NCBI RefSeq assembly: GCF_902774605.1
Contig: NZ_CACYJE010000009.1
Location: 1 to 50,009 of the forward strand
Reading direction: 5' to 3'
Length of the DNA stretch: 50,009 bases
From: an uncultured Methanobrevibacter sp.
GTDB lineage: Archaea; Methanobacteriota; Methanobacteria; Methanobacteriales; Methanobacteriaceae
Shown: positions 15,296 through 29,682 of the stretch, piece by piece
Position numbering within the stretch: position 1 is the first letter of the stretch
How the letters are laid out: each line of letters opens with the position of its first letter
Program-made: the position numbers and the translations under genes
Notes under the pieces: generated by a model
The model's database searches: none
What the model saw: only the letters and a program-made list of their open reading frames with translations
Told to the model about the DNA's origin: nothing

Positions 15296-15376
15296 TTAGT
15301 AATACTTTTTATATTTATTTGACTATGTTAGTAATACTTTAATAATATTTATTAATAATGATTTTAAATATATAAA
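15296..15376 (+). promoter_or_regulatory. cobN-like operon promoter with two TTAGTAATACTTT repeats
   Basis: TTAGTAATACTTT occurs exactly twice, at 15296-15308 and 15328-15340, 32 bp (three helical turns) apart. A TATA-like TTTTAAATATATAAA follows at 15362-15376, placing transcription start about 10 nt before the ATG at 15402. The core AGTAATACT is an odd-length palindrome, as expected for a dimeric regulator. Related sites occur upstream of the DUF3344 gene at 22486. Confidence 0.5.
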
Positions 15377-15401: not shown

Positions 15402-18400
15402 ATGTTTAGAAATAAGAGAGGTTTTTTAGTAATATTCGCAATTTTTATCATAATTATTTCTACTCAAGTTGTTTTTGCTATAGAAAATGGCACTGATTTG
15501 AGTATTGAAAACAATCAAGCGATTGATAGTGGCAATGATTTAATTGTAGAAGAGATTGTTGGTGAAGATTGCGCAGAAAGCGGAAGTGAGCTGAATTCAG
15601 ATAGGTTAAATTCACATGACATGCTTGAACCTGAAGACACTTCCTCTTCTCAAGATAATTATACTCTGTTTTTTATTAGTGATAATCCTGGCACTAATAT
15701 TCTAGATGCGGCTAGTCGGGAACTTTTCAATGAGCATGATTTCAAGAATGTCAATATAATTGTCAGAAGCGGTGAACAGGTTAAGACAATGAGTGAAATG
15801 GAATTAGTGAATTTAATATATGAATCCGATGCATTCGTTGGAGAGTGGATTAGTACTGATGTTGATGCCGTTTTGACAAGTGCTATTGAAAAATATCCTG
15901 ACCTTGTAGAAAAGCAAGTGTTTTTGACATTGGAACCTCCTTCAGGGAATTTGAATTCTGGATCTTCTTCCATTAATTTAATCAAACAGAATACAATTAA
16001 TTATAATAGGATTTTATCATCATTTTCAACAGATGATATCATTACATATTTTTCAAATACTCAGAGGGGAACTGCTTACGAAGACATTGAAAGATATATA
16101 AGGGGTGATGGTGCTGCATTCAATAAAGTGTTAAACGATTTGGTGTTGTATAAGGATATCAATGACAAGAACAACATGAAAAATCAAATTCTATACATTT
16201 TGAATCATTTGGGTTTAGATGTTGATTATGATGAACCAAATTTCACAGGGTCTTATCTATATGGGATATACAGGGAAAGGTGGTTTTCTTTAGATGAGTA
16301 TATTGCAACTTATTTTGACTCTTCAAGAACTCGTACTGTAGGTATATTGGAAAGTACGATGTATGTTTCATCCCAGCAACTGCATCCAACATATGCAATA
16401 ATAGAATCATTGGAATCTAAAGGATATAATGTCATTCCAGTATTTGCTGCTGGAGGTACAGCTGAACAGTTAAGGGTTATGGTCGAATCTTTCACAAGTG
16501 CTGGCAGTGACATTTCAGGATTTTTAGCGAACTCATCAAATTATGAAATGTATGTAGATGCCATAATATCAATGGTTGCATATGGGGTAGGCGGAGAAAA
16601 TTTTACTAAAACAATAGACTTTTTTGAAGAGCTCGGAGTTCCAGTTTTCAGGGCTGTCCATTCCGATTATGTTTCAAATGAACAGTGGGAGCTTGGAAGT
16701 ACAGGTTTGACCACAGAAAAAAGTGATAAATGGTGGCATGTTGCTATTGCAGAGGCACAAGGTATTATTGATGCTACATTCATTGGAGGTGTTTCATCAT
16801 ACATCTCAGAATTGACCGGTGCAAGAATCGTCACATATATTTCTCATGTAAGAAACATTGATTTGTTGACTGACAGGGTAGACTCATGGGTAGACTTGAA
16901 ATATGCTGAAAATGGTGAAAAGGTACTCTCCATAATCTATTATAACTATCCTCCAGGAAAACAGAATATAGGATCAAGTTATTTGGATACAATTACCAGC
17001 ATTTATAATATGCTATACACTTTAAAGGCCGCAGGATATAAGGTTGAAGATTTGCCTAACAATGTTTCAGAACTTGAAGACATGATTTTAAGGTGTGGAA
17101 TCAATGTAGCTAATTGGGCTCCTGGTGAACTTGAAAAATTGGCTAATCAATCCGGTGTAACATTGTTTCCGGTAAGCGAATACACTGAATGGTTCAATTC
17201 ATTAGATGACATTATTAAGTTGCAGGTTCGTGAAGGTCCAGTCGCATACATTGGAGAGTTGGCAAGAAGGGCGGTTGAGTTAAACTACACCGTGACTATT
17301 GGGGATACAATTGATGATTGGTTAAATCAGGTAACTTCATTGCTTCCTGATGATAAGGCTGCTGATGCCAAAGTCGTTTTAAATAAGATTGTAGGTGCAT
17401 TGAAAAACTATACCAAGACCCAGGATATTAAATACTTCAATTTGTTCCAACAGTATTTTGCCGAATTCAAGCAGCTGAATGTTTCAGGATTAAACGGATG
17501 GGGTGACTCACCGGGTACAGTAATGGTTGTCAATAGGAATGGAATCGATTACTTTGTGATTCCGGGTTTGACATTTGGAAATATTTTCATTGCTCCAGAA
17601 CCTCAGAGGGGTTGGGAGGCGGACATTTCAAATCTATACCATTGTACTGCCGTTGCTCCAACACACCAGTATTTGGCAGCATATTACTATATGCAAAAAT
17701 ATTATTCAAACGCAATGGTCTTTGTTGGAAGGCATGCAACTCATGAATGGTTGCCTGGAAAAGAGATTTTATTGTCAGCAACTGATTACGGATCTGTTGT
17801 TGTTGGAGATGTGCCTCAATTGTATTTCTATATTTCTGATGGTTTGGGAGAAGCTATTCAAGCAAAAAGAAGGGGATTTGCAGTATTGATTTCGCATTTG
17901 ACTTCTCCAATGTCTTATACTCATTTATATGGAAATTTAACAATTTCGGTTAATTTGATTAATTATTATTATAATACTGAAAATGTAGAATTGAAATCAG
18001 AGTTTGCACAGCAAATACGCCAATTCATTATTGAACAGGATTATTCAATGAATTTGGGATTAAGTGTTGAGGAAGTGGCAAATTTAGCTGATGATATTCT
18101 TGTTGATAAGTTGGACACATTTTTAAAATCGCTTCAGGATGTTCTCTATCCTTTAGGTCTTCATGCTTTAGGACAATATTGGACAGAACAAGACCTTGCA
18201 AGCACGGTTTCGGTAATGCTGTCATTCGATTTTGAAAGCGAACAAGGTGAAACCAACCTATTCGATGAACTTTCATACATATATTACTCTAAGGATTATG
18301 ACAGTTTATCATCTTTTGAAAGAGAATTTATCCTCAACAAATCATATGATATCTGCAAAGCCCTGATTTATTGGGATGTGGATGATATTTACAGAACATT

Positions 18401-20540
18401 GGTTGCAGGAAATAATTTATATGATAATGCAAAAGTTCTTGCCTGTTTGCAATTGGCTAAAAAATACATAGGTTTGATTAATGAAAGTGTAACCAATGAA
18501 ATGAATTCAATGCTCAATGGGTTAAACGGCAGATATATCCCTATTAGTGCTGGGGGAGAAGTAATATTAAACCCAATTGTTCTTCCAACAGGAAGGAATA
18601 TGTATCAGGACCAATCCCAGGAACTACCAACTCAGGATGCATGGAATTATGCAAAGACATTGGCGCTCTTGACCCTATCCGGCTTGAATGATACAACTGA
18701 TAAAGTCATAATGGGAATTTGGTGTGTTGAAACTGCAAGGGATGACGGGGCTTTGGTTGCATCCGTTTTATATCTTCTTGGAATGAAGCCAGTATGGTCA
18801 GATTCACCAAGTGCAGGATATTTCATAGATGATGAGGATGATCCTGACCATGACCATGGGGAAATAGGTCAAAAAACCAAATCAATGCCGGAATATATTC
18901 TTTTGGAAGACTTAACTCGTCCTGAAGGTTGGGATAAGAAAAGAATTGATGTAACTGTGATTACCAGTGGTCTGTTTAGGGATTTATACTCTTCTCAATC
19001 CATTTTGTTAGATAATGCGTTTAGGGTTGCACTTGCAAGATCTTACAATACCATTGTTCGAAACAGTACTCTTATGAGAAGTCAATACGGTAAGCAAATA
19101 AAAGAGGCCATTAATTTTGTCATGGGAGGCATAGGATATTATGGTATTAGTTCAGAATCACTTGAGGATAATTACGTTGCAAAGCACTGGGTTGAAGATT
19201 GCATATACTATTTAAGTCAAGGTTATAATGCCACTTATGCAGGTGAATGTGCCATTACACGCATTTTTGCACCACCGAACGGCGATTATGGTGCAGGAAT
19301 ATCAAAATTGGTATCAATGTCATGGACCTGGAACGATACAAGCGAGCTAGCCGACTTTTACCTTGGAAGGATGGGAAACATGTATTCCAAAAATTATTGG
19401 GGAGATACAAATCCATTGGTATTCCTTAGGGCACTATCCAATTCAGATACAATCGTAACTAGCCGTAACACTAATCAATATGGTGTTCTCGACAACGATG
19501 ACTTCTTTGATTATTGGGGTGGATTGTCCATGACAGTCGAGAAGATATCTGGAAAAACCCCTAACATGAACGTATTGATGTACGCCAATAAGGATAAGGC
19601 ATATATTGCATCCTTGGAGGAAGTGATGTATCAGGAAATTGCTTCAAGATATGACAATCCCGAATGGATTAAGGGAATGATGGCCGAAGGATACAGCGGT
19701 GCAAGATACATGTCAAATAAATTTGTAACTAATCTATATGGTTGGCAGGTTACCAGACCTTCTGCCGTCAGTGATGCTTTATGGAACAGAGTTTATAATA
19801 CTTACTACAATGACAGATACAATATTGGTGTTACCGATTGGCTGAAAACTGGAAATAATGCATATTCCCTTATTTCAATGAGTGGAACAATGTTGACTGC
19901 CATTCAGGAAGGCTATTGGAATGCAAATGAGGGAACAATAAGAAACATTGCAAACACATGGGCTCAGGCAACAGTTCAAAATGGTGTTGCCTGCTGTGAC
20001 TGCAGCTGCGGAAATATCGCAATGATGCAATGGGCAGTTCAATATGTCAATCCTGATATTTTGGCACAGTTGCTTCCTAAATTATATGAGGCAACCAAAA
20101 ATCCGGTATTTGCAAACAATACTCAATCAACTGTTCCTCCAGAAACTCAGGACAATGTCCAAAATCAGAATGAGGCGTCAACAAACAATCCAGTTGAGGG
20201 TTCAACTTCATCAGCCACTATTGCAACAAATTCAAGTTCAACAACCAATCAAGCTACCGCACAAAACGGTGAAAATGCACAGGGTGAAGCATTTTCAAAT
20301 GTCGGTGCAGGCAGTGAGTCAGTACAGGCGGGAAGTTCTTCTGTTGAAGGTGCTGACGTTAAAAAATCAGTTGAAATCAATCCAATCACTTCACAGTCAG
20401 CAAGTGAAGTTGGATTGTCTCTTATAGCGGTTATAGCTATATTGTGTTTGATTATGGTTATAGCATTCGGATACTTTAGAGACAGTGACGATAAGGATAA
20501 AAAACATGATTTGGATAAGCTTTTCAGAGAAAAATTTTAG
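15402..20540 (+). CDS. surface-anchored CobN-like metal chelatase/dechelatase
   Basis: A 1712-residue protein of the CobN/magnesium-chelatase H family. Residues 1-27 are a signal peptide (ending QVVFA), and residues about 1668-1690 a single transmembrane helix before a short charged tail, so the body should lie outside the membrane. The core motif FVGRHATHEWLPGKE (F774 to E788; H778, H781, E782) corresponds to the CobN HGTLEWLPGK signature and is followed by the family stretch EAIQAKRRGFAVLISHLTSPM. A C-C-x-C-x-C cluster (C1531, C1532, C1534, C1536) lies near the end of the core, and an S/T/N/Q-rich linker runs from about 1566 to 1665. Cytosolic CobN inserts cobalt into a corrin ring with ATPase partners; none is encoded here. 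The context (ExbB/ExbD-like genes) resembles bacterial HmuS, which I recall as a heme dechelatase. The substrate is unknown: cobalt, nickel or a metal tetrapyrrole are candidates. Confidence 0.85.
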   Translation: MFRNKRGFLVIFAIFIIIISTQVVFAIENGTDLSIENNQAIDSGNDLIVEEIVGEDCAESGSELNSDRLNSHDMLEPEDTSSSQDNYTLFFISDNPGTNILDAASRELFNEHDFKNVNIIVRSGEQVKTMSEMELVNLIYESDAFVGEWISTDVDAVLTSAIEKYPDLVEKQVFLTLEPPSGNLNSGSSSINLIKQNTINYNRILSSFSTDDIITYFSNTQRGTAYEDIERYIRGDGAAFNKVLNDLVLYKDINDKNNMKNQILYILNHLGLDVDYDEPNFTGSYLYGIYRERWFSLDEYIATYFDSSRTRTVGILESTMYVSSQQLHPTYAIIESLESKGYNVIPVFAAGGTAEQLRVMVESFTSAGSDISGFLANSSNYEMYVDAIISMVAYGVGGENFTKTIDFFEELGVPVFRAVHSDYVSNEQWELGSTGLTTEKSDKWWHVAIAEAQGIIDATFIGGVSSYISELTGARIVTYISHVRNIDLLTDRVDSWVDLKYAENGEKVLSIIYYNYPPGKQNIGSSYLDTITSIYNMLYTLKAAGYKVEDLPNNVSELEDMILRCGINVANWAPGELEKLANQSGVTLFPVSEYTEWFNSLDDIIKLQVREGPVAYIGELARRAVELNYTVTIGDTIDDWLNQVTSLLPDDKAADAKVVLNKIVGALKNYTKTQDIKYFNLFQQYFAEFKQLNVSGLNGWGDSPGTVMVVNRNGIDYFVIPGLTFGNIFIAPEPQRGWEADISNLYHCTAVAPTHQYLAAYYYMQKYYSNAMVFVGRHATHEWLPGKEILLSATDYGSVVVGDVPQLYFYISDGLGEAIQAKRRGFAVLISHLTSPMSYTHLYGNLTISVNLINYYYNTENVELKSEFAQQIRQFIIEQDYSMNLGLSVEEVANLADDILVDKLDTFLKSLQDVLYPLGLHALGQYWTEQDLASTVSVMLSFDFESEQGETNLFDELSYIYYSKDYDSLSSFEREFILNKSYDICKALIYWDVDDIYRTLVAGNNLYDNAKVLACLQLAKKYIGLINESVTNEMNSMLNGLNGRYIPISAGGEVILNPIVLPTGRNMYQDQSQELPTQDAWNYAKTLALLTLSGLNDTTDKVIMGIWCVETARDDGALVASVLYLLGMKPVWSDSPSAGYFIDDEDDPDHDHGEIGQKTKSMPEYILLEDLTRPEGWDKKRIDVTVITSGLFRDLYSSQSILLDNAFRVALARSYNTIVRNSTLMRSQYGKQIKEAINFVMGGIGYYGISSESLEDNYVAKHWVEDCIYYLSQGYNATYAGECAITRIFAPPNGDYGAGISKLVSMSWTWNDTSELADFYLGRMGNMYSKNYWGDTNPLVFLRALSNSDTIVTSRNTNQYGVLDNDDFFDYWGGLSMTVEKISGKTPNMNVLMYANKDKAYIASLEEVMYQEIASRYDNPEWIKGMMAEGYSGARYMSNKFVTNLYGWQVTRPSAVSDALWNRVYNTYYNDRYNIGVTDWLKTGNNAYSLISMSGTMLTAIQEGYWNANEGTIRNIANTWAQATVQNGVACCDCSCGNIAMMQWAVQYVNPDILAQLLPKLYEATKNPVFANNTQSTVPPETQDNVQNQNEASTNNPVEGSTSSATIATNSSSTTNQATAQNGENAQGEAFSNVGAGSESVQAGSSSVEGADVKKSVEINPITSQSASEVGLSLIAVIAILCLIMVIAFGYFRDSDDKDKKHDLDKLFREKF

Positions 20541-20549
20541 GTGATTAAA

Positions 20550-21257
20550 ATGGATGCGATTAATATTTTATGGCAAGTGGGTATTTTATCTGCTGTTTTG
20601 ATTTTTGGAATTAAATTGGGTCTGGCAACAGGTCTGGCCAATATGTCAAAGAAATATTTGGCATTGGTTTCCATTGGATATGGTGGAGGTGTGTTGATAT
20701 TGACAGAAATCTCTTCCCATTTCACACAGCAGATTACAGACTTGATTTATACTTATAATTTTGAATTTTTCCTGATAATGGCAATAATCATGATTTTGGC
20801 AGGATTGTTCACAATAAGGGAATATAAGGTGTTTGAAAAGAACACAACCGCCGCAACTTGCATGGCTGTTGTGGCACCTTGTCCGTGCTGTTTTGGATCT
20901 ATTATAGTGAGCATCATGCTTGTTGCACCTACAGTTGGTTTGGGATTGATGGATTTGAGTCTTGTCGTTGCAGGTGCATTGGTTCTGACAATTGTTCTAA
21001 CCTATTTTGCATCCAACCACCTTGTTAGGTTTATTGATAAGCCATATCCGATTGTTTTAGGTAATTTCATGTTCTTTTTGGGAATATATTTCCTCCTCTC
21101 AGCATTGTTTTTACCAAACATCACAGCAATGATTCAAAATCCGATGGATGCAATATCAATATCTTCTCCTTATTCATTGATTGGAGCATTGATACTGATA
21201 TTGGTGATTATTGGAATAGGCGGAATAATTTCAAGGAGAAACAGCAATTTTAATTAG
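20550..21257 (+). CDS. DUF2162-type polytopic membrane protein with CPCC motif
   Basis: A 235-residue integral membrane protein with about six or seven hydrophobic segments (roughly residues 5-25, 35-55, 70-88, 98-150, 165-190, 210-230). The motif A-P-C111-P-C113-C114 with C104 just before it lies in a membrane segment and suggests metal or thiol chemistry. I assign it to DUF2162 from its position between a CobN-like gene and an ExbB-like gene and from its topology; this is less certain than its neighbours. It probably forms the membrane conduit for what the CobN-like protein releases (inference). An in-frame GTG at 20541 is part of the AGGTGA ribosome site, so the ATG at 20550 is chosen. The gene starts 9 nt after the cobN-like stop, so translation is probably coupled. 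Confidence 0.65.
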   Translation: MDAINILWQVGILSAVLIFGIKLGLATGLANMSKKYLALVSIGYGGGVLILTEISSHFTQQITDLIYTYNFEFFLIMAIIMILAGLFTIREYKVFEKNTTAATCMAVVAPCPCCFGSIIVSIMLVAPTVGLGLMDLSLVVAGALVLTIVLTYFASNHLVRFIDKPYPIVLGNFMFFLGIYFLLSALFLPNITAMIQNPMDAISISSPYSLIGALILILVIIGIGGIISRRNSNFN

Positions 21258-21265
21258 GTGATTTT

Positions 21266-21910
21266 ATGGTAGCAACAATTCCCGGCAGCGAAATATTGAC
21301 TTCAACATTAAACATGATTTCTCAAAGTCTGCAGATTCCCGTAATTATCTTTTTAGTGATATTTGCGGTTTTCGCAGTCTTGGCTATTGGAGGGCTGGTT
21401 TCTGAGTACACTTCAAGAAAAAAAGTCACTCCTGACCTCATCGAGCAGCTAATATATTCAATTTCAAATGCGGGCTCTTTAGAGGAAATAAAGGACATAA
21501 TTAAGAACGCAAAAATCTATGAATCCCAGAAGGTTGTCCTGATTAAAATTTTAAGATCAAGTTCCCTTACAGTCGATTCAAGGCATGCCCTTGCAAAGAA
21601 ACTGATAGAGTTTGAGGAAAACAAATTCACAAAGACAATAGAGAAAACTGATGTGGTAACTCGTATAGGGCCGACTTTAGGTTTAATGGGTACTTTAATC
21701 CCAATGGGTCCAGGTCTTGCCGCATTGGGTGCTGGTGATGTAAATACTCTTGCCAACGCGATTATTGTAGCATTTGATACCACTGTTGTTGGTATTGGTG
21801 CAGGTGCTGTGGCCTACTTCGTATCAAAAGTAAGACGCAGATGGTATGAGGAATACCTGTCCAACTTGGATGCGCTTGCCGATGCGCTTCTGGATAAATT
21901 AAATCAATGA
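21266..21910 (+). CDS. MotA/TolQ/ExbB-type proton channel subunit
   Basis: A 214-residue membrane protein with the ExbB layout: one helix near residues 21-45, a cytoplasmic stretch of about 85 residues (VTPDLIEQLIYSISNAGS...), then two helices at about 133-157 and 160-185. The second pair carries RIGPTLGLMGTLIPMGPGL and NAIIVAFDTTVVGIGAG, where the T-LGLMGT-P and A-TT-G-GAG patterns are hallmarks of ExbB/TolQ. Such proteins form the pentameric ring of proton-driven motors. It sits 8 nt after the DUF2162 gene with an AGGTGATTTT site, and 9 nt before the ExbD-like partner. The presence of this motor in a single-membrane archaeon is notable. Confidence 0.85.
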   Translation: MVATIPGSEILTSTLNMISQSLQIPVIIFLVIFAVFAVLAIGGLVSEYTSRKKVTPDLIEQLIYSISNAGSLEEIKDIIKNAKIYESQKVVLIKILRSSSLTVDSRHALAKKLIEFEENKFTKTIEKTDVVTRIGPTLGLMGTLIPMGPGLAALGAGDVNTLANAIIVAFDTTVVGIGAGAVAYFVSKVRRRWYEEYLSNLDALADALLDKLNQ

Positions 21911-21919
21911 GGTTTTCAC

Positions 21920-22252
21920 ATGGTTCTAGACAAGTCTAAGAAAAGATTTTCAGAAGGTGAAGAGGATCCGATGGCAGGAACCTCAAATCTTGTTGATGCA
22001 ATGCTTGTTATTGCAGTTGGATTGCTGATATTTGTTGTAATAAGTTGGAATATGCAGAGTGTTGTATTTCAGGATTCGCAAGACCAACAAAAGGCCATTG
22101 AGGAATCATCACCTGATGTGACTGAAGTGGCTGAAGGACAGGTTTTAAATGAGACTCCAGATACCTCCGACAGCTCCGGTCAGGGATACATGGAAATGGG
22201 TAAGGTCTATAAGGATCCTTCAACGGGAAAATTGATAATGGTTGAAGGTTAA
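21920..22252 (+). CDS. DUF2149-type ExbD-like protein
   Basis: A 110-residue protein with a short cytoplasmic N-terminus, one membrane helix (residues about 24-44, LVDAMLVIAVGLLIFVVIS) and a roughly 65-residue outer domain ending YKDPSTGKLIMVEG. The helix starts with Asp26 in the context LVD-MLV. This is close to ExbD, where Asp25 in FIDIMLVLL carries the proton, so it is probably the motor-rotor partner of the upstream ExbB-like protein. The position as last gene of the cobN-like operon and the DP-AGTSNLVD motif fit DUF2149. The outer domain is much shorter than ExbD's. A TTTTTTTACTTTTTATTTT run about 40 nt downstream is the likely termination site. Confidence 0.8.
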   Translation: MVLDKSKKRFSEGEEDPMAGTSNLVDAMLVIAVGLLIFVVISWNMQSVVFQDSQDQQKAIEESSPDVTEVAEGQVLNETPDTSDSSGQGYMEMGKVYKDPSTGKLIMVEG

Positions 22253-22333: not shown

Positions 22334-22414
22334 AAGTATTACTTTTTTTATTATTTTCCTATTTTAGTAATAAATTGATTAGTTTTAAATATTAAATATT
22401 ATATAGTAATAATT
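22334..22414 (+). promoter_or_regulatory. AGTAATA-type sites upstream of DUF3344 adhesin
   Basis: Three sites related to the cobN-like promoter repeats lie here: AAGTATTACTT (22334-22344, a perfect odd palindrome), TTAGTAATAAA (22364-22374) and TAGTAATAATT (22404-22414). They precede the AT-rich core promoter of the gene at 22486. Shared core sites point to one regulator for both transcription units (inference). In such AT-rich DNA chance matches remain possible. Confidence 0.4.
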
Positions 22415-22485
22415 AAGGGTATAATTTTATTATTACCTTTAATAAATTTTTAAAAATTCGTATTAAATATTTGGAGGAAATTATT

Positions 22486-25400
22486 TTGCAAAGTAAAAGA
22501 AGAAATTCGATATTATTGATTGCATTGCTTTTCATATTATTGATGTCTATCTCTTTTGTTAGTGCACAAGAATTAGATGATTCAAATAATGATGATTTGG
22601 CTGTTGATAATAGCGAATCTGTAATTGAAAGTCAAAATGATGGACTGGATGATATATCTAGTCAAGATAATGAAGATGAATTGAAAGATTCAAGTCAGGT
22701 TGTCGAAACAATTCCTCAAGCCGATACAGGGGTTGTTTCAGGAGGAGTTGACTTAACTACTTATAATGGTAGGACTACAACAGGTAATGTGGTGTATACA
22801 GTTCCAGTTAATCAAACCAATCTTAAATCTGCAATAGTTGTTGTAAATGTTTATTCAGGTAGTGGAGCTGAGACATATGGTCTTTATTCCAATGTTACAT
22901 TAAATACAAACAATGGACTGGAAGTTTTGGGATATGAAACATTAACATTTGATACTAATCTCGCAAACGATCCAACTGTTTATTATGTAAATGACCACAC
23001 TACCAAACAATATTCAGACTACCAAATGGTTTACGATATTACAAACAAGGTCAAAAACTTAAATCCTGGAGATACCATCACTGTAGGTGTTGAAAACACA
23101 AAGATTCCAGACAAACTATTTGATGGTAATATTAAATTAATTGGCCTATTCTATGCTTATGATGATGGGGATGAAGATAAGTATACTTATTGGTTACATT
23201 TAGGTCAGTTATGGAGATCTGCAACCACCGGTAATTTTAATTTTGCAACTCAGAATTATAATGGTAAAACTGATGATATTTCATTAAGGACAATCGCATT
23301 ATCCAGTTCACTTGCAGATTCTTATAAAATTAACAATAATGAAATTACTCCAACTAGCGTAACCCCAGGGGACTATTATTCTAATGATATTAAATGGGAC
23401 AATATTGCGTATGCATTTAGTTCTGGAAGTGAAACCAATTTCTCCTTTGAAAAAAGTTCCGGTTCCTATAAAACTAATGTCGCTTTGTTGGTGGTTAGAG
23501 AACAATATGAAACCGCACCTATAACTGAAGTTTATGTTAATTATGCTACAGGTTCCGATGATTATGCGGGAACAAGTTCAGAAAACTCATTTAAAACAAT
23601 TGAACATGCATTAAGTGTAATTGAACCAAATGGAATCATTCATTTAAGTGGTGTAAACTACTTGGATAATGTTGGCGTTGATGGTATTTCCATTGATAAA
23701 AATGTTTCCATTATTGGTATGGGTGATGATGCTGTAATCGATGCTAACAATAATGGTAGGATTTTCAGTATTGGTGCTTATACAGTCAATTTATCTAATT
23801 TGGCATTTGTCAATGCTAATGTTGCTGGTGCCAGCGATAAACGTGGAGGAGCATTATGGGTCAATGGGGCTACTTTAACAGTTGATAATTGTAAATTCAT
23901 CAATAACACTGCAGGTACAAGTTCATCCTACGGTGGAGCCATCAACTTAAAATCTGCTACAGCAACCATTAGAGATTCCTATTTCGAAAACAACTCTGCA
24001 TGGTATGCTGCTGGTGCAATTAATGCTGAAAATAGTAATGTGCTTTTAAACATTACAGGCTCAACATTTACTAACAATGTTATTTTAAACAATGGATGGT
24101 CCGCAGGAGCTGCAATATGTGCCTATAATACTGTAATAATTGACAGATCAATGTTTTATGGTAACAGATTAACTGACACTACCCGTAATGGTAAATCCAT
24201 CAACGAATACAGTACTGGCAGTTTAACAATCACCAATTCTGTTTTATTGGATGGTGAAAAAGGAGTATGGATTGCAACCGGCCCAACTGTTTTAGAAAAT
24301 AACTGGTGGGGAAACAATGACACTACCAAAGATACCAATCCAAAAGACTTAGGATACACAAATGCTGATGTAACTTCCTATTTATATCTTAATATGGTAA
24401 TGTATGCAACTGGTATGGATATAGATGATGTGGCAACTGTAAATATTAACTTGGTTTCAAGTGATGACAGTGAATTTGATATGCCAAATCTTCCTGCAAC
24501 CATTGCTGCTGTAAATGGAGATGTTAATCCTGAAACTACCACTCTCGTCAATGGTATTGCATCTGTTGCATATACAATCACTGAAGTTGGAAACAATGCT
24601 GTAACTGTTGATGTTTTAGGAATTAAAGATACTGTAACTTTATCTTCTGAAGATGTAGTTTCAACCGCTATAGTTTATGTAAACTCAACTGGCGGTTCTG
24701 ATTCAAACTCTGGAAATAGCTGGGAAAATGCATTTAAAACAATTGAAAAGGCTGTAAGTGCTGTAGAAGAGGATGGAACAATTTATGTTGCTGATGGTTT
24801 CTATCAATTAGGTGATTCTGTTCCTGCAGCAGGTATTTCTATAACTAAAAACATCGCTATCATCGGTCAAAGTACAAATGCTGTAATTTCAGGTGGTAAT
24901 GCAAAAAGAATATTTACTATTGGTGTAGATTGTACTTTAAACATTACTAAATTAACTTTAACTGAAGGTAAAGGTACTTATGGTGGTGCTATTCAGATTG
25001 AAGATGGTGGAAATACAAACCCTGTCCGTCAAGGTTATTTAATAATTTCCGATTCAATTATTTCAAATTCTCAAGCAACTACTATCGGAGGAGCTATTGG
25101 AACAAATAGGGGAACTATCAGCAATATTAACAATGTCACATTCGTAGGCAATAGTGCACCTATCGGTGGGGCGGTAGGTTCATCTCAAAAAGGAACTGTT
25201 AATATTGGAGAAAATTGTAAATTTATTGAAAATAGTGCTTCTGGTCGTGGATCCGTGATTTATGCTCAAGCAGAAGTAACCACAGGTAAAAACAACCTAT
25301 TTTATGGAAATATTGCAACTGGCAACTATGGTTATGGTGCTATATTTGGTTATGGATTTGATATAGGTCCCGCTAATGTATTTATTAATAACAAAGCAGC

Positions 25401-28400
25401 AGCAGGTGGATCATTATATCTTGGTGGAAACAGATATTCTGGAACCGGTAGCTATTGTATATTCATTAATAATACAGATAATGATGGTTACACTATTGCA
25501 AAACAAAGTAAAAACCGCCCAGTAACCCTTAATAATTGTTATTGGGGAACAAATACTCCTGATTTCAGTGCTTTATGTAATGGGGCTATAACTTATACCA
25601 ATTATTTGGTATTGAATATATCTTCAGATAGTGATGAAATCCATGTTGGTGAAAATGTGGTCATCACTGTCGATTTGACTAAAAATCAGAATGGTGGAAC
25701 TGTAGATATTAATTCACTTCCAGGCAGTCTACCTTTAGTATTCGCAGTTGTTAACGGTAATGTAAATCCAATTACAACAGAGCTTGTAAATGGTGTTGGA
25801 ACAACTACTTATTCACCTTCTGTAATGGGTGAAGGTTCTGTGACAGCTAATATTTATGCAGTTGCTGAAACTTACACCTTAAATGTATTGCCTGAAGCTG
25901 GAACAGTATTTGTTAATAGTACTGGTGGCTTAGATACTAATGCAGGTGACAGTTGGACAAATGCTGTTAAAACTATTAAACATGCTTTGGAAATTGTTGG
26001 TGAAAATAGAACAATTTATGTTGCTGATGGTATTTATTATTTAGAAGATGTTTCCGTTGATGGATTAACCATTGATAAAAATGTTTCCATTATTGGTATG
26101 GGAGATAATATTGTCATCGATGCTAATAATAATGGTAGAATATTCAATATTGATGGTTCAACAGTTACTTTGAATAATTTAATTTTCACCCATGCGGACG
26201 TTTCCAATGCTACAGTTAAACGTGGTGGAGCACTATACGTAACCAGTTCAATTTTAAATATTGATAATTGTAAGTTCATTGACAATACTGCTGGAATTTC
26301 TGGCAGTTATTCAGGTGCAATCAATTTAATAGGATCCAATACTACAATTTCCAATTCCTACTTTGAAAATAACACTGCATGGTATGGTGGTAGTGCAATT
26401 AATGCACAATCTGGAAATATCTTTGTCAATATCCAAAATTCCCAATTCATTAACAATAGGGCTCTGAACACAGGATATGCAATGGGTGGAGCACTCATGA
26501 TTTATGGTGATTCCATCATTAACAGGTCAGTTCTTTTCAATAATAGTTTAGGTGATAAATCTAGGGCAAATGCTGGTCAAGCAATCAACTATGGTCAAGG
26601 TAATCATGTTCTTGTCAATTCAGTATTGATAGGCGAAGGATTATTGACAGTTAACCTAGGAAATAGTGCTGTCGTTTCATTAGAAGACAACTGGTGGGGA
26701 AACAATGACACAACCAAAGACACAAATCCTAAAGATTTAGGACACACAAACGGTAATGTGGAATCTTATTTAGTTTTATCTTCAACTATAGATAAAGATT
26801 TAATTTTTGCTGGTGATTTGGTTACTGTTACCACTACATTAGGCAATGTAATTGAATTGCCTGTTGTATTCGATGCTAATTTAGGCAGTGTAACTCCTAA
26901 TGAAGCAACTATTCTTGGTCAGGTAGTGTCTACTTATAATGCCACTGACATGGGAGATGTTATTGTTACAGTTGATGTGTTAGGAATTAAAAATGAAATT
27001 AAATTCACTGTAAAAGAATCTCTTCCTAATGTTGCTATTGCTCAAGTCAAAACTCCTTGGAACGATGGAATCTATCCGGGAGTTAACAATACTTTCACTA
27101 TCACATTAAATAATTTAGAAAATGACCCTGTGGAAGGTTTAGTCCTTGAAGTATATTCCAATGAAACCGGTGAATTAATTGCTAGTTACACTATCGATTC
27201 ATTAGTTGCTGGAACTTCAACAATTTCAGTGACAGACCCTACAATTCGTCCAATAACAGAACAGACTGTATGGCCTACTGCAAGAGATAATAAGATTAGA
27301 TTCACATTTAATTTAATGAGGGGAGAAGATGTGGCTGCCACATTAAGTGTTGACAAAATGCTTGCATATGACGGATATTTAAATAAGACATATGCATATG
27401 GTGGTCATGACAATATCATAAACAGAAATTACACAATTACTGGAGACATTATCATTGCTACACAGGATGAGAGCGTTTACATGGATCAATTATCAAGGTT
27501 CAGAAATGAAACATGGAACATTGAAACACCTGAAGATGCAGAAAATATTAGAGCATTCTTATACTTCAACTATAACTGGGATACTTCATTCTTCCCTAAC
27601 GGATGGACTTTAACATTCAATGATGTTGAAATAACCGCTGATTATATCTCTTATGAAAGAGATAGAGGTAACCTAGGTGGTTGGGGTGCATATGACTATG
27701 GTCTTTTAGTATTTGATGTAACTGAGTATTATAAGGCAAATCAAAATAATTCTTTCGTCATTGAAAAAACCGGCAATTGTGCATTATATCCATCAACTTT
27801 ATATGTATTATATGACATGCCAAACAGCCATGTAACCAAGGATGTTTACTTCAGCGATATTTGTGACGTATTCTATCCAAACTATAACATGAATGGCTAT
27901 GACGACTTGATTAAATTTGTTGTTGATTATAATGGATTGAATTTAGAAAATATGACTGAAGCTACCTGGTATGTATTTAGTGGTTCTTCTTCAACTAACA
28001 ATATTCTTTTATTCAATGATAAGGAAGAAAATGCGTTCATTGGACGTACTTCTAATAGCTGTTATGCTTTAGAATTGGATGTAACTGATTACATTTCTGA
28101 AAACAATAAAGCATGGTTCATTTCAACCAATAGGTCTACAACCACTGTCGCTTATGAACAGGTATTGGTTATTACTAAAGTTTCAACTGTTGAAACTTCT
28201 ATAGAAATTACATCAATCCAAGGTAACGGCACTATTTTAGGAATTCTAAAAGATAATTCTGGTTTAGGAGTAGCTAATCAAATCATCAACTTAACTGTTG
28301 ATGGTACAAGCTTCGCAAGCACCGTCACTAATGATGCTGGTGAATTCACAATAATTGGTAAAAACGGTGTAAATAACATTATTTTTGAAGGAGATAATGT

Positions 28401-29682
28401 ATTTTTAACTTCAATCAAGTCAATCACCTTAACTGACATTGCTTCAAATGAGGAAACCAACAAAACAATTTCAGATTTAGAAAAACAATTAGAAGAAGCT
28501 CAGGCTAATGCCACTGCTTTGGCTGATGAGCTTGATGATGCTAAGGCTAATTTGACTGCTGCTGATGAGAAAATTGCTGGTTTGGAAAGTGATCTTGCTG
28601 AAGCAAATCAAAAAATTGCTAATTTGACTAGTCAATTAGAAAATATCACTGCCCAATTGGCAAATAAAACTTCTGAAGTAGCTAACTTAACTGATCAATT
28701 GGCTGAGGCTCAGGCTAATGCTACTGCTTTGGCTGATGAGCTTGCTGATGCTAAGGCTAATTTGACTGCTGCTGATGAAAGAATTGCTGATTTGGAAAGT
28801 GATCTTGCTGAAGCAAATCAAAAGGTTGGTAACTTAACTGATCAATTGGCTGAGGCTAACAGTAATATCACTAGTTTAACTGAAAAATTATCAACTGTCA
28901 CTACTCAATTGGCTGAGGCTCAGGCTAATGCTACTGCTTTGGCTGATGAGCTTGCTGATGCTAAGGCTAATTTGACTGCTGCAGAAGCTAAAGTTGCTGA
29001 TTTGACTAATAAATTGGCTGATGCTAATAATAATATTACTAATTTGACTGATAAATTAGCTAATATCACTGCTCAATTGGAAGAAGCTCAAAAACAAATT
29101 CAAAACCTGTCTTCTGAGTTAATCCCTACAGCAATCACAGCAAATGCCTTAAAAATTAAAGCTTTAAATAGTGGAAACTTCCAAGTCACCTTAAAAGATA
29201 ATAAAGGTAATGCTTTAGCAAATAAAACAGTATCCATTATTATTAATGGTGTAACAAAACAAGTAACCACTGATGCCAATGGTATTGCAAAATTATCAGT
29301 TAAATACTCAACTGCTGGTACTTACAATGTGGTAGTCACATTCTTGGGTGATAAAACATACTCAGCTACTGTAGCAACCGGTAAAATTACCGTAACTAAA
29401 AAGGCTACAAAAATCACCGCTCCTAAAAAGAAATTTAAAGTTAAGAAGAAAACCAAAAAGGTTAAAATCACTTTAAAATCTGAAGGAAAAGCTTTGGCTA
29501 AAAAGAAAATCACTTTAACTGTCAAAGGTAAAACTTTCAAAGCTAAAACCAATTCAAAAGGTGTGGCTACAATTAAAGTTAAACTTAATAAAAGAGGAAC
29601 TTTCAAGTACAAAGTGAAATTCGCTGGTGATGGAGCTTACAAAGCAATCAGTAAAAAAGGTAAAATTGTAATCAAAAAATAG
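22486..29682 (+). CDS. large secreted DUF3344/beta-helix protein with coiled-coil stalk
   Basis: About 2398 residues. The start is the TTG at 22486, because the upstream in-frame TTG at 22471 lies on the GGAGG ribosome site (22473-22477). Order: signal peptide (1 to about 24, ending SFVSA); DUF3344-like domain (82-342, from GVVSGGVDLT); three beta-helix blocks at about 349-632, 731-1043 and 1141-1428, the latter two opening VNSTGG.D.N.G.SW.NA.KTI; Ig-like segments between; a CARDB-like segment (1515-1625); a second DUF3344-like domain (1629-1902); a 28-heptad coiled coil (about 2006-2201); an Ig-like domain; and a lysine-rich C-terminal domain (about 2310-2398). It is secreted without a membrane anchor. 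Position directly after the cobN-like operon suggests a role as extracellular binding partner, but a general adhesin is equally possible. Confidence 0.85.
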   Translation: MQSKRRNSILLIALLFILLMSISFVSAQELDDSNNDDLAVDNSESVIESQNDGLDDISSQDNEDELKDSSQVVETIPQADTGVVSGGVDLTTYNGRTTTGNVVYTVPVNQTNLKSAIVVVNVYSGSGAETYGLYSNVTLNTNNGLEVLGYETLTFDTNLANDPTVYYVNDHTTKQYSDYQMVYDITNKVKNLNPGDTITVGVENTKIPDKLFDGNIKLIGLFYAYDDGDEDKYTYWLHLGQLWRSATTGNFNFATQNYNGKTDDISLRTIALSSSLADSYKINNNEITPTSVTPGDYYSNDIKWDNIAYAFSSGSETNFSFEKSSGSYKTNVALLVVREQYETAPITEVYVNYATGSDDYAGTSSENSFKTIEHALSVIEPNGIIHLSGVNYLDNVGVDGISIDKNVSIIGMGDDAVIDANNNGRIFSIGAYTVNLSNLAFVNANVAGASDKRGGALWVNGATLTVDNCKFINNTAGTSSSYGGAINLKSATATIRDSYFENNSAWYAAGAINAENSNVLLNITGSTFTNNVILNNGWSAGAAICAYNTVIIDRSMFYGNRLTDTTRNGKSINEYSTGSLTITNSVLLDGEKGVWIATGPTVLENNWWGNNDTTKDTNPKDLGYTNADVTSYLYLNMVMYATGMDIDDVATVNINLVSSDDSEFDMPNLPATIAAVNGDVNPETTTLVNGIASVAYTITEVGNNAVTVDVLGIKDTVTLSSEDVVSTAIVYVNSTGGSDSNSGNSWENAFKTIEKAVSAVEEDGTIYVADGFYQLGDSVPAAGISITKNIAIIGQSTNAVISGGNAKRIFTIGVDCTLNITKLTLTEGKGTYGGAIQIEDGGNTNPVRQGYLIISDSIISNSQATTIGGAIGTNRGTISNINNVTFVGNSAPIGGAVGSSQKGTVNIGENCKFIENSASGRGSVIYAQAEVTTGKNNLFYGNIATGNYGYGAIFGYGFDIGPANVFINNKAAAGGSLYLGGNRYSGTGSYCIFINNTDNDGYTIAKQSKNRPVTLNNCYWGTNTPDFSALCNGAITYTNYLVLNISSDSDEIHVGENVVITVDLTKNQNGGTVDINSLPGSLPLVFAVVNGNVNPITTELVNGVGTTTYSPSVMGEGSVTANIYAVAETYTLNVLPEAGTVFVNSTGGLDTNAGDSWTNAVKTIKHALEIVGENRTIYVADGIYYLEDVSVDGLTIDKNVSIIGMGDNIVIDANNNGRIFNIDGSTVTLNNLIFTHADVSNATVKRGGALYVTSSILNIDNCKFIDNTAGISGSYSGAINLIGSNTTISNSYFENNTAWYGGSAINAQSGNIFVNIQNSQFINNRALNTGYAMGGALMIYGDSIINRSVLFNNSLGDKSRANAGQAINYGQGNHVLVNSVLIGEGLLTVNLGNSAVVSLEDNWWGNNDTTKDTNPKDLGHTNGNVESYLVLSSTIDKDLIFAGDLVTVTTTLGNVIELPVVFDANLGSVTPNEATILGQVVSTYNATDMGDVIVTVDVLGIKNEIKFTVKESLPNVAIAQVKTPWNDGIYPGVNNTFTITLNNLENDPVEGLVLEVYSNETGELIASYTIDSLVAGTSTISVTDPTIRPITEQTVWPTARDNKIRFTFNLMRGEDVAATLSVDKMLAYDGYLNKTYAYGGHDNIINRNYTITGDIIIATQDESVYMDQLSRFRNETWNIETPEDAENIRAFLYFNYNWDTSFFPNGWTLTFNDVEITADYISYERDRGNLGGWGAYDYGLLVFDVTEYYKANQNNSFVIEKTGNCALYPSTLYVLYDMPNSHVTKDVYFSDICDVFYPNYNMNGYDDLIKFVVDYNGLNLENMTEATWYVFSGSSSTNNILLFNDKEENAFIGRTSNSCYALELDVTDYISENNKAWFISTNRSTTTVAYEQVLVITKVSTVETSIEITSIQGNGTILGILKDNSGLGVANQIINLTVDGTSFASTVTNDAGEFTIIGKNGVNNIIFEGDNVFLTSIKSITLTDIASNEETNKTISDLEKQLEEAQANATALADELDDAKANLTAADEKIAGLESDLAEANQKIANLTSQLENITAQLANKTSEVANLTDQLAEAQANATALADELADAKANLTAADERIADLESDLAEANQKVGNLTDQLAEANSNITSLTEKLSTVTTQLAEAQANATALADELADAKANLTAAEAKVADLTNKLADANNNITNLTDKLANITAQLEEAQKQIQNLSSELIPTAITANALKIKALNSGNFQVTLKDNKGNALANKTVSIIINGVTKQVTTDANGIAKLSVKYSTAGTYNVVVTFLGDKTYSATVATGKITVTKKATKITAPKKKFKVKKKTKKVKITLKSEGKALAKKKITLTVKGKTFKAKTNSKGVATIKVKLNKRGTFKYKVKFAGDGAYKAISKKGKIVIKK
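28501..29088 (+). repeat. 210-bp tandem repeat encoding ten-heptad coiled-coil units
   Basis: The string CAGGCTAATG opens each unit at 28501, 28711 and 28921, exactly 210 bp (70 codons, ten heptads) apart. The third unit runs 168 bp (eight heptads) to 29088, so the array is 588 bp or 28 heptads with the register kept. The first 65-70 bp of each unit are nearly identical in DNA, which points to recent duplication or gene conversion. Each unit encodes ANATALADEL-DAKANLTAA with repeated N-A-T, N-L-T and N-I-T sequons. Confidence 0.9.

Follow-up and report, generated by a model that had tools for sequence, protein, structure and literature searches.

A Methanobrevibacter operon joining a surface CobN-like protein to an ExbB-DUF2149 motor, with a probable role in nickel acquisition

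Background

HmuSTUV of gut Bacteroidota, which strips iron from heme, combines an exported, membrane-anchored heme dechelatase of the CobN superfamily (HmuS), a small polytopic membrane protein (HmuT), an ExbB homologue (HmuU) and a DUF2149 protein (HmuV), and His538 of HmuS is needed for turnover (PMC12583661). The use that archaea make of their many HmuS/CobN homologues has been called unclear, complete hmu operons being lacking there (PMC12583661), and according to a 2011 genome paper Methanothermobacter had as yet no identified nickel transporter (PMC3087415). Here, we describe a four-gene operon in a 50,009-nucleotide stretch of DNA (the window; NZ_CACYJE010000009.1, positions 1 to 50,009) from an uncultured Methanobrevibacter sp. 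(GCF_902774605.1), which forms contig C9 of a methanogen genome of 2.14 Mb and 96% completeness. The operon is best read, with moderate confidence, as a cell-surface machine for the acquisition of nickel, possibly cobalt, and as an archaeal, single-membrane counterpart of HmuSTUV that probably frees scarce nickel from bound forms using an ion-driven motor. The PF09930 and PF09919 domains were already known, and annotation already shows the parallel to hmu; new here is the assignment of the metal, by way of a cis-element shared with nickel and cobalt uptake genes. No paper joining the archaeal operon to HmuSTUV, a nickel regulon or nicotianamine synthase (NAS) was found in a literature search that was thin in subscription journals.

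Organization and conservation of the operon

Open reading frame (ORF) maps and Pfam searches place four genes at 15402-22252, all on the + strand:

15402-20540, + strand: CobN/HmuS-superfamily surface protein, 1712 amino acids (aa) (PF02514, E=1.5e-225)
20541/20550-21257, + strand: DUF2162 polytopic membrane protein (PF09930, 6.2e-67)
21266-21910, + strand: ExbB/TolQ/MotA-family motor subunit with GPTLGLMGTLIPMGPGL and FDTTVVG motifs (PF01618, 5.6e-10)
21920-22252, + strand: DUF2149, an ExbD-like subunit with a single transmembrane (TM) helix (PF09919, 1.8e-22)

An earlier note on this DNA, made from the letters and their ORFs, had described four tightly packed genes within this span and gaps of 9, 8 and 9 nt, which holds provided that DUF2162 starts at ATG 20550; an alternative in-frame GTG start (20541) abuts the cobN stop. 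Its description of the last three products as a polytopic CPCC protein, an ExbB homologue and an ExbD-like single-helix protein is borne out by the DUF2162, PF01618 and DUF2149 assignments. A genome search found this locus to be the single place with a CobN, and Rfam detected no known riboswitch in the window. The reported lack of ChlI/ChlD genes extends from the window to the 96%-complete genome, where PF01078 matches are solely sequences read as LonB and MCM, with CobS/CobT models outside the search.

The arrangement recurs well beyond this genome. Across 152 genomes of the phylum, with up to 4 CobN candidates scored per genome so that counts are lower bounds, DUF2149 was found in at least 136 and CobN in at least 119. 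Among the matches listed, a same-strand CobN match lies upstream of at least 30 DUF2149 genes, at a distance of 2.0-2.5 kb in 27 cases and 3.3-3.5 kb in 3, so the four-gene association is not due to chance. The operon recurs across Methanobacteriota, in many methanogens, and the co-occurrence on which the earlier note had made its reading depend is seen in other genomes.

A surface protein with a chelatase fold

The CobN-like protein has a signal-like N-terminal helix (aa 5-31) and one C-terminal TM helix (aa 1670-1692), which support the earlier placement of the protein outside the membrane rather than in the cytosol. A CobN homologue of this kind, MTH673, was raised in 2011 as a possible nickel chelatase of F430 biosynthesis (PMC3087415); such a role is hardly credible for the window protein, which its signal peptide and C-terminal anchor place outside the membrane and for which no AAA+ partner was found in the genome. 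An AlphaFold (AF2) model of the ectodomain (residues 301-1500; pLDDT 83.5, pTM 0.81) gave HmuS as the best Foldseek match (9d26, E=2.7e-54, TM-score 0.72), followed by CobN (7c6o, TM-score 0.71) and ChlH (4zhj, TM-score 0.69). The model thus supports a chelatase fold with a tetrapyrrole-type body, the feature that the earlier note had wanted checked by structure prediction. The protein shares its PF02514 domain, fold and CobN-like LDNDD motif with the CobN-CobST and ChlH-ChlI-ChlD chelatases, but it is exported, anchored and paired with an ion-driven motor, and a PF01078 search found no AAA+ subunits for it in the genome.

Alignment to HmuS and to other archaeal surface CobNs locates the following features:

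17733-17735, + strand: His778, equivalent of catalytic HmuS His538 (alignment column)
17850-17852, + strand: Glu817, equivalent of HmuS Glu577
19488-19523, + strand: LDNDDFFDYWGG, the CobN-like version of HmuS LSLDHxxEFMGG, with Asp in place of His1209 and Glu1212
19992-20015, + strand: CCDCSCGN, a cluster of cysteines where the ectodomain ends
20409-20477, + strand: C-terminal TM anchor, preceded by SVEINP, a variant of the shared [AS]YE[VI] tail

The fold and the His538 and Glu577 positions of HmuS are kept, whereas His1209, Glu1212, Met79 and His254 are absent; the site-1 heme ligands Met79 and His254 align with Ile and Ala in a head domain where the alignment is weak. The window protein instead fits the CobN-type motif LDNDDxxDYxGG. 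It has the HmuS architecture without the heme-specific residues, and for lack of these it is not HmuS. In a tree HmuS has a long branch to itself; the window protein groups with motor-linked Methanobacteriales proteins in a clade that has full support. The Cys/His-rich cluster CC[DH][CH][ST]C[GA]N, or close variants of it, is common to the archaeal surface CobNs aligned.

If the operon were a genuine HmuS system of archaea, taking iron from heme, it would have the S-U-V gene set and the best structural match seen here. This reading is very improbable, as Met79, His254, His1209 and Glu1212 are not conserved, HmuT, HmuY and HmuR have no counterpart, and the shared cis-element described below points to nickel and cobalt genes. 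Heme or iron as the primary reading was rejected by the residue alignment.

A [AS]YE[VIL]-linker-TM-GY tail (20370-20477 in the window) ends unrelated surface proteins of the CobN, FmdE and beta-helix types, and recurs in loci L042, L044, L046, L050, L063, L086 and L099. Genome searches found the YEV-TM-GY form in 5-11 surface proteins per genome, some of them without an adjacent motor. As a motor-docking tag the tail was for that reason rejected, and it is taken as a shared anchor only; judged from sequence, an anchoring, sorting or docking signal is possible.

DUF2162 and the ExbB-DUF2149 motor

DUF2162 is polytopic and carries its CPCC motif at 20880-20891. The motif is kept in 11 of 11 CobN-linked copies aligned and altered in copies linked to FmdE and CbiM (L042, L043, L050, L053, L073). 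Its structure model is of low confidence and the fold search gave no confident relative, so that a CcdA/DsbD-like redox role and a ZIP/NiCoT-like role for DUF2162 are both conceivable; hand-over of metal or thiols between the CobN Cys/His cluster and the CPCC motif is plausible from the sequences. The motor subunit shows, by alignment, the conserved pore threonines of PF01618, and it has GTL and TT motifs. DUF2149 has one TM helix and a conserved Asp in NLVDAM (Asp26, codon 21995-21997), and NLxDaM is present in all nine DUF2149 sequences aligned, HmuV included. These features are shared with ExbB-ExbD, TolQ-TolR and MotA-MotB, each with a PF01618 subunit and a single-TM partner bearing a conserved Asp; here, in contrast, the partner is DUF2149 and not Pfam ExbD, and what the motor would drive is a surface protein of a single-membrane cell instead of TonB and an outer-membrane receptor.

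In fetched Bacteroidota hmu operons, HmuU matches PF01618 and HmuV matches PF09919 (1.1e-34). The archaeal genes can be aligned with them over GPxLGLMGTLIPMGPxL and NLxDaM, which identifies genes 3 and 4 as genuine homologues of HmuU and HmuV. HmuT had no Pfam match, and hhalign of DUF2162 against HmuT gave a probability of 0.1%. HmuT as a DUF2162 protein is thus not supported by Pfam or hhalign, homology remoter than this sensitivity being possible. The composition that the earlier note had equated with hmuSTUV accordingly stands for S (fold), U and V (Pfam and alignment), with no detectable parallel for T. The archaeal system further differs from HmuSTUV in having no outer membrane, HmuY or HmuR, and in a gene 2 that is DUF2162 with CPCC and not detectably HmuT.

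ORF maps of fetched neighbourhoods show the motor in several settings. Arrangement A is that of the window, cobN-DUF2162-exbB-DUF2149. Arrangement B runs from a FmdE-domain surface protein through a His-rich protein, CbiM (in L042, PF01891 1.3e-42), a 160-aa protein and DUF2162 to exbB and DUF2149 (L042, L043, L073). CbiM-linked surface CobNs followed by motor genes make up arrangement C (L058, L060, L061), and beta-helix surface proteins followed by exbB-DUF2149 without DUF2162 make up arrangement D (L035, L036, L099). The window genome has two further motors. One, DUF2162-exbB-DUF2149, lies at the edge of a contig (C86, L034); the other (C64, L080, 2722-8013) has the order Peripla_BP_2, FecCD, ABC ATPase, FmdE/zinc finger, 212-aa protein, exbB, DUF2149. 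Judged from these neighbourhoods the motor is a module shared among several surface proteins, of which many have links to metal uptake. Its partners include FmdE together with CbiM, a FecCD-type importer and beta-helix proteins, so it is not dedicated to demetallation; of the earlier proposal of a proton motor driving demetallation or release, the homology of the partners to HmuU and HmuV holds and the dedication does not.

Two side observations concern the motor. The L080 cluster on C64 reads as an ABC importer for metal or corrinoids that is coupled to an ExbB-type motor. In L035, L036, L051, L057, L070 and L099, an exbB-DUF2149 pair lacking DUF2162 comes immediately after a large beta-helix or other surface protein.

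A cis-element shared with nickel and cobalt uptake genes

Two GTAATAC boxes with 32-bp spacing stand upstream of cobN, and an imperfect copy precedes the large surface-protein gene that follows the operon:

15299-15337, no strand assigned: candidate operator of a metal regulon, GTAATAC-N25-GTAATAC, 65 bp ahead of the cobN start
22336-22374, no strand assigned: imperfect operator copy GTATTAC-N25-GTAATAA, before the DUF3344 gene
22471-29682, + strand: large surface protein with a DUF3344 domain, 2403 aa (PF11824, 2.8e-44), a candidate accessory component

The exact element GTAWTAC-N25-GTAWTAC occurs 5 times in the 2.14-Mb genome versus 0 for a reversed control, with 0.11 expected under a first-order Markov model of the window. 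Apart from the one at cobN, the four candidate operator sites stand at a NikA-like binding protein gene (nikA1BC) with NikB/C/D-like genes; at a second NikA/B/C set (nikA2BC; TIGR02294, 1.9e-55); between a GNAT acetyltransferase gene and the divergent nikD-nikE-NAS genes (PF03059, 1.5e-22); and at a CbiM-type gene (MHIPDGFIPIAQ...) with CbiN/CbiQ-like neighbours (CbiMNQO), assigned by sequence inspection. In 15 congeners 59 operator pairs were found versus 1 in the reversed control, and 38 of the 39 sites examined in the window genome and congeners adjoin nik, GNAT/NAS, cbiM, cobN-operon or DUF3344 surface-protein genes. Exact pairs precede DUF3344 genes in congeners (L196-L198), and DUF3344 genes adjoin cobN operons in L037, L048, L066 and L096.

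On this distribution the cobN operon very probably belongs to a nickel/cobalt-uptake regulon, and nickel is likely to be the main metal of the machine. Methyl-coenzyme M reductase, [NiFe] hydrogenases and CO dehydrogenase all depend on nickel, and methanogenesis can be limited by it. Nickel, or nickel and cobalt, is favored over iron or heme because the operon shares its cis-element with Nik/Cbi transporters and NAS, where HmuSTUV is under iron regulation, and because the HmuS-specific heme residues are missing. The earlier proposal of a metal-acquisition role thus stands, and iron or heme as its metal does not. NikABCDE, CbiMNQO, Cnt and the Methanothermobacter NAS (MtNAS) have the 32-bp-spaced element in common with the operon and sometimes share its neighbourhood; the window machine is not such a transporter, however, and would act upstream, making metal available.

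Acquisition of cobalt or corrinoids in place of nickel, with the body holding a corrinoid as in cobaltochelatase and the cobalt being recycled, would suit the CobN-type LDNDDxxDYxGG motif, the CbiM family (which carries Co as well as Ni) and the third motor of the window genome, adjoining a FecCD-type ABC importer and a FmdE protein. It is quite unlikely given the NikA-type binding proteins within the regulon and the response of the M. marburgensis operon ExbB to Ni limitation (below).

In L209, 3964-5713 (C39), lies the single NikR gene of the genome, followed by methyltransferase-like and hydrogenase-maturation-protease-like genes identified by eye. Elsewhere (L249; G001:C1:58000-64000) a NAS gene adjoins an ABC transporter operon, divergent, by eye, from a NikR-like ribbon-helix-helix gene. 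The window genome has two NAS genes (C35:8728-9366 and C91:693-1331). The GNAT-like acetyltransferase gene, divergent to NAS or nikDE-NAS, shares the cis-element in L105 (11295-11855), L190 and L246-L248; its product may modify the metallophore.

The operon in Methanothermobacter

The locus can be tied to characterized proteins in M. thermautotrophicus deltaH (genome G149), a strain with established genetic tools (PMC8609365), whose NAS is identical to the thermonicotianamine synthase of PDB entries 3fpe and 3o31. Gene order in deltaH is NAS, FmdE surface protein, CobN (1708 aa), DUF2162, ExbB, DUF2149, and the operator with 32-bp spacing and at most 1 mismatch precedes NAS and the FmdE-CobN genes in both M. 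thermautotrophicus and M. marburgensis. The cobN of the M. marburgensis locus was listed as MTBMA_c10550-10570 (MTH673) in the 2011 genome paper (PMC3087415), and these three tags correspond to three cobN ORFs found there. By tag order, MTBMA_c10540 is predicted to be DUF2162 and MTBMA_c10530 to be ExbB. In a 2025 proteome study, MTBMA_c10530, named 'Transporter', increases when Ni is limiting and is put forward as a possible participant in Ni transport; a CobN1 and NikR1 are abundant only when Ni is limiting (PMC12350162). In M. ruminantium, the ExbB mru_0329, which lauric acid induces along with nik genes, was dropped as support; it lies among adhesin-like mru_0326/0327/0331 and seems to be of another motor type.

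M. marburgensis and G151 (L045) have fragmented copies of both NAS and the linked cobN, alongside intact FmdE, DUF2162, ExbB and DUF2149 genes. Read from the sequences, this joint fragmentation fits a joint function of NAS and CobN. It also fits an arrangement in which no tetrapyrrole is involved: the surface CobN would be a non-catalytic receptor for the Ni complex of the cell's own nicotianamine-type metallophore, and the motor would drive release to a Nik transporter. The cis-element shared with NAS, the thermonicotianamine synthase gene adjoining the operon in Methanothermobacter and CntA-type matches among the NikA-like binding proteins point the same way. Such a receptor is nonetheless unlikely, as the HmuS catalytic His and Glu and the chelatase body are kept, which a plain receptor does not need, and the CbiM-linked loci import free ions.

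Proposed mechanism

Export, operon structure, fold, HmuU/HmuV homology, the shared cis-element and the nickel/cobalt neighbourhoods are supported directly by sequence; the regulator, the metal-chelate substrate, the direction of the chemistry (dechelation), force coupling and the metal route are inferred. Under metal shortage, a regulator, for which the single NikR is a candidate, would derepress the operon together with NikABC-type and CbiMNQO transporters and NAS. A metal chelate would bind the HmuS/CobN-type cavity of the ectodomain, a Ni-tetrapyrrole such as F430 debris being a first guess at the substrate, and the metal would be freed there by a reverse chelatase reaction, as in HmuS. As no ChlI/ChlD was found in the genome, the energy that AAA+ ATPases give to cytosolic chelatases would here come from ExbB-DUF2149, which would turn an ion gradient (H+ or Na+) into mechanical work on the anchored ectodomain or DUF2162. 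Freed metal might exit by way of the CCxCxC cluster and the membrane protein with CPCC; alternatively, a nicotianamine-type metallophore might catch it for import by Nik/Cbi transporters. Tetrapyrrole dechelation by the ectodomain is, taken by itself, quite possible, though held tentatively.

Several points weigh against nickel acquisition by dechelation. Nik and Cbi families also carry cobalt and zinc. The partners of the motor include unrelated ectodomains, and in some cases no motor lies next to a surface CobN. The fold search returned no confident structural relative of DUF2162 (best E 0.2). NikR is a candidate only, the operator's binding protein not being established, and no copy of the paired element lies beside the NikR gene. 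In M. marburgensis (L044/L247) the linked cobN is broken up into three ORFs and NAS is in two pieces, so that the partner of its Ni-responsive ExbB may be the FmdE surface protein, which is intact, and the CobN1 of the proteome, as far as the available part of that source goes, could not be matched to this locus. Dechelation by any archaeal member is shown by no experiment.

At its most extended, the nickel-acquisition reading would have an extracellular, ion-gradient-powered dechelatase strip nickel from tetrapyrroles, such as the F430 of dead neighbours, and pass it to a nicotianamine-type nickelophore and Nik/Cbi importers within one nickel regulon, with the DUF2149 motor as a general archaeal drive for surface metal-handling proteins; this fuller picture is speculative and somewhat doubtful as a whole. 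The nickel-acquisition reading would give a testable job to the hmuSUV-like genes that stand beside DUF2162 in many methanogens, offer a context for archaeal (thermo)nicotianamine synthase, and provide a case of an ExbB-type motor at work in a cell without an outer membrane.

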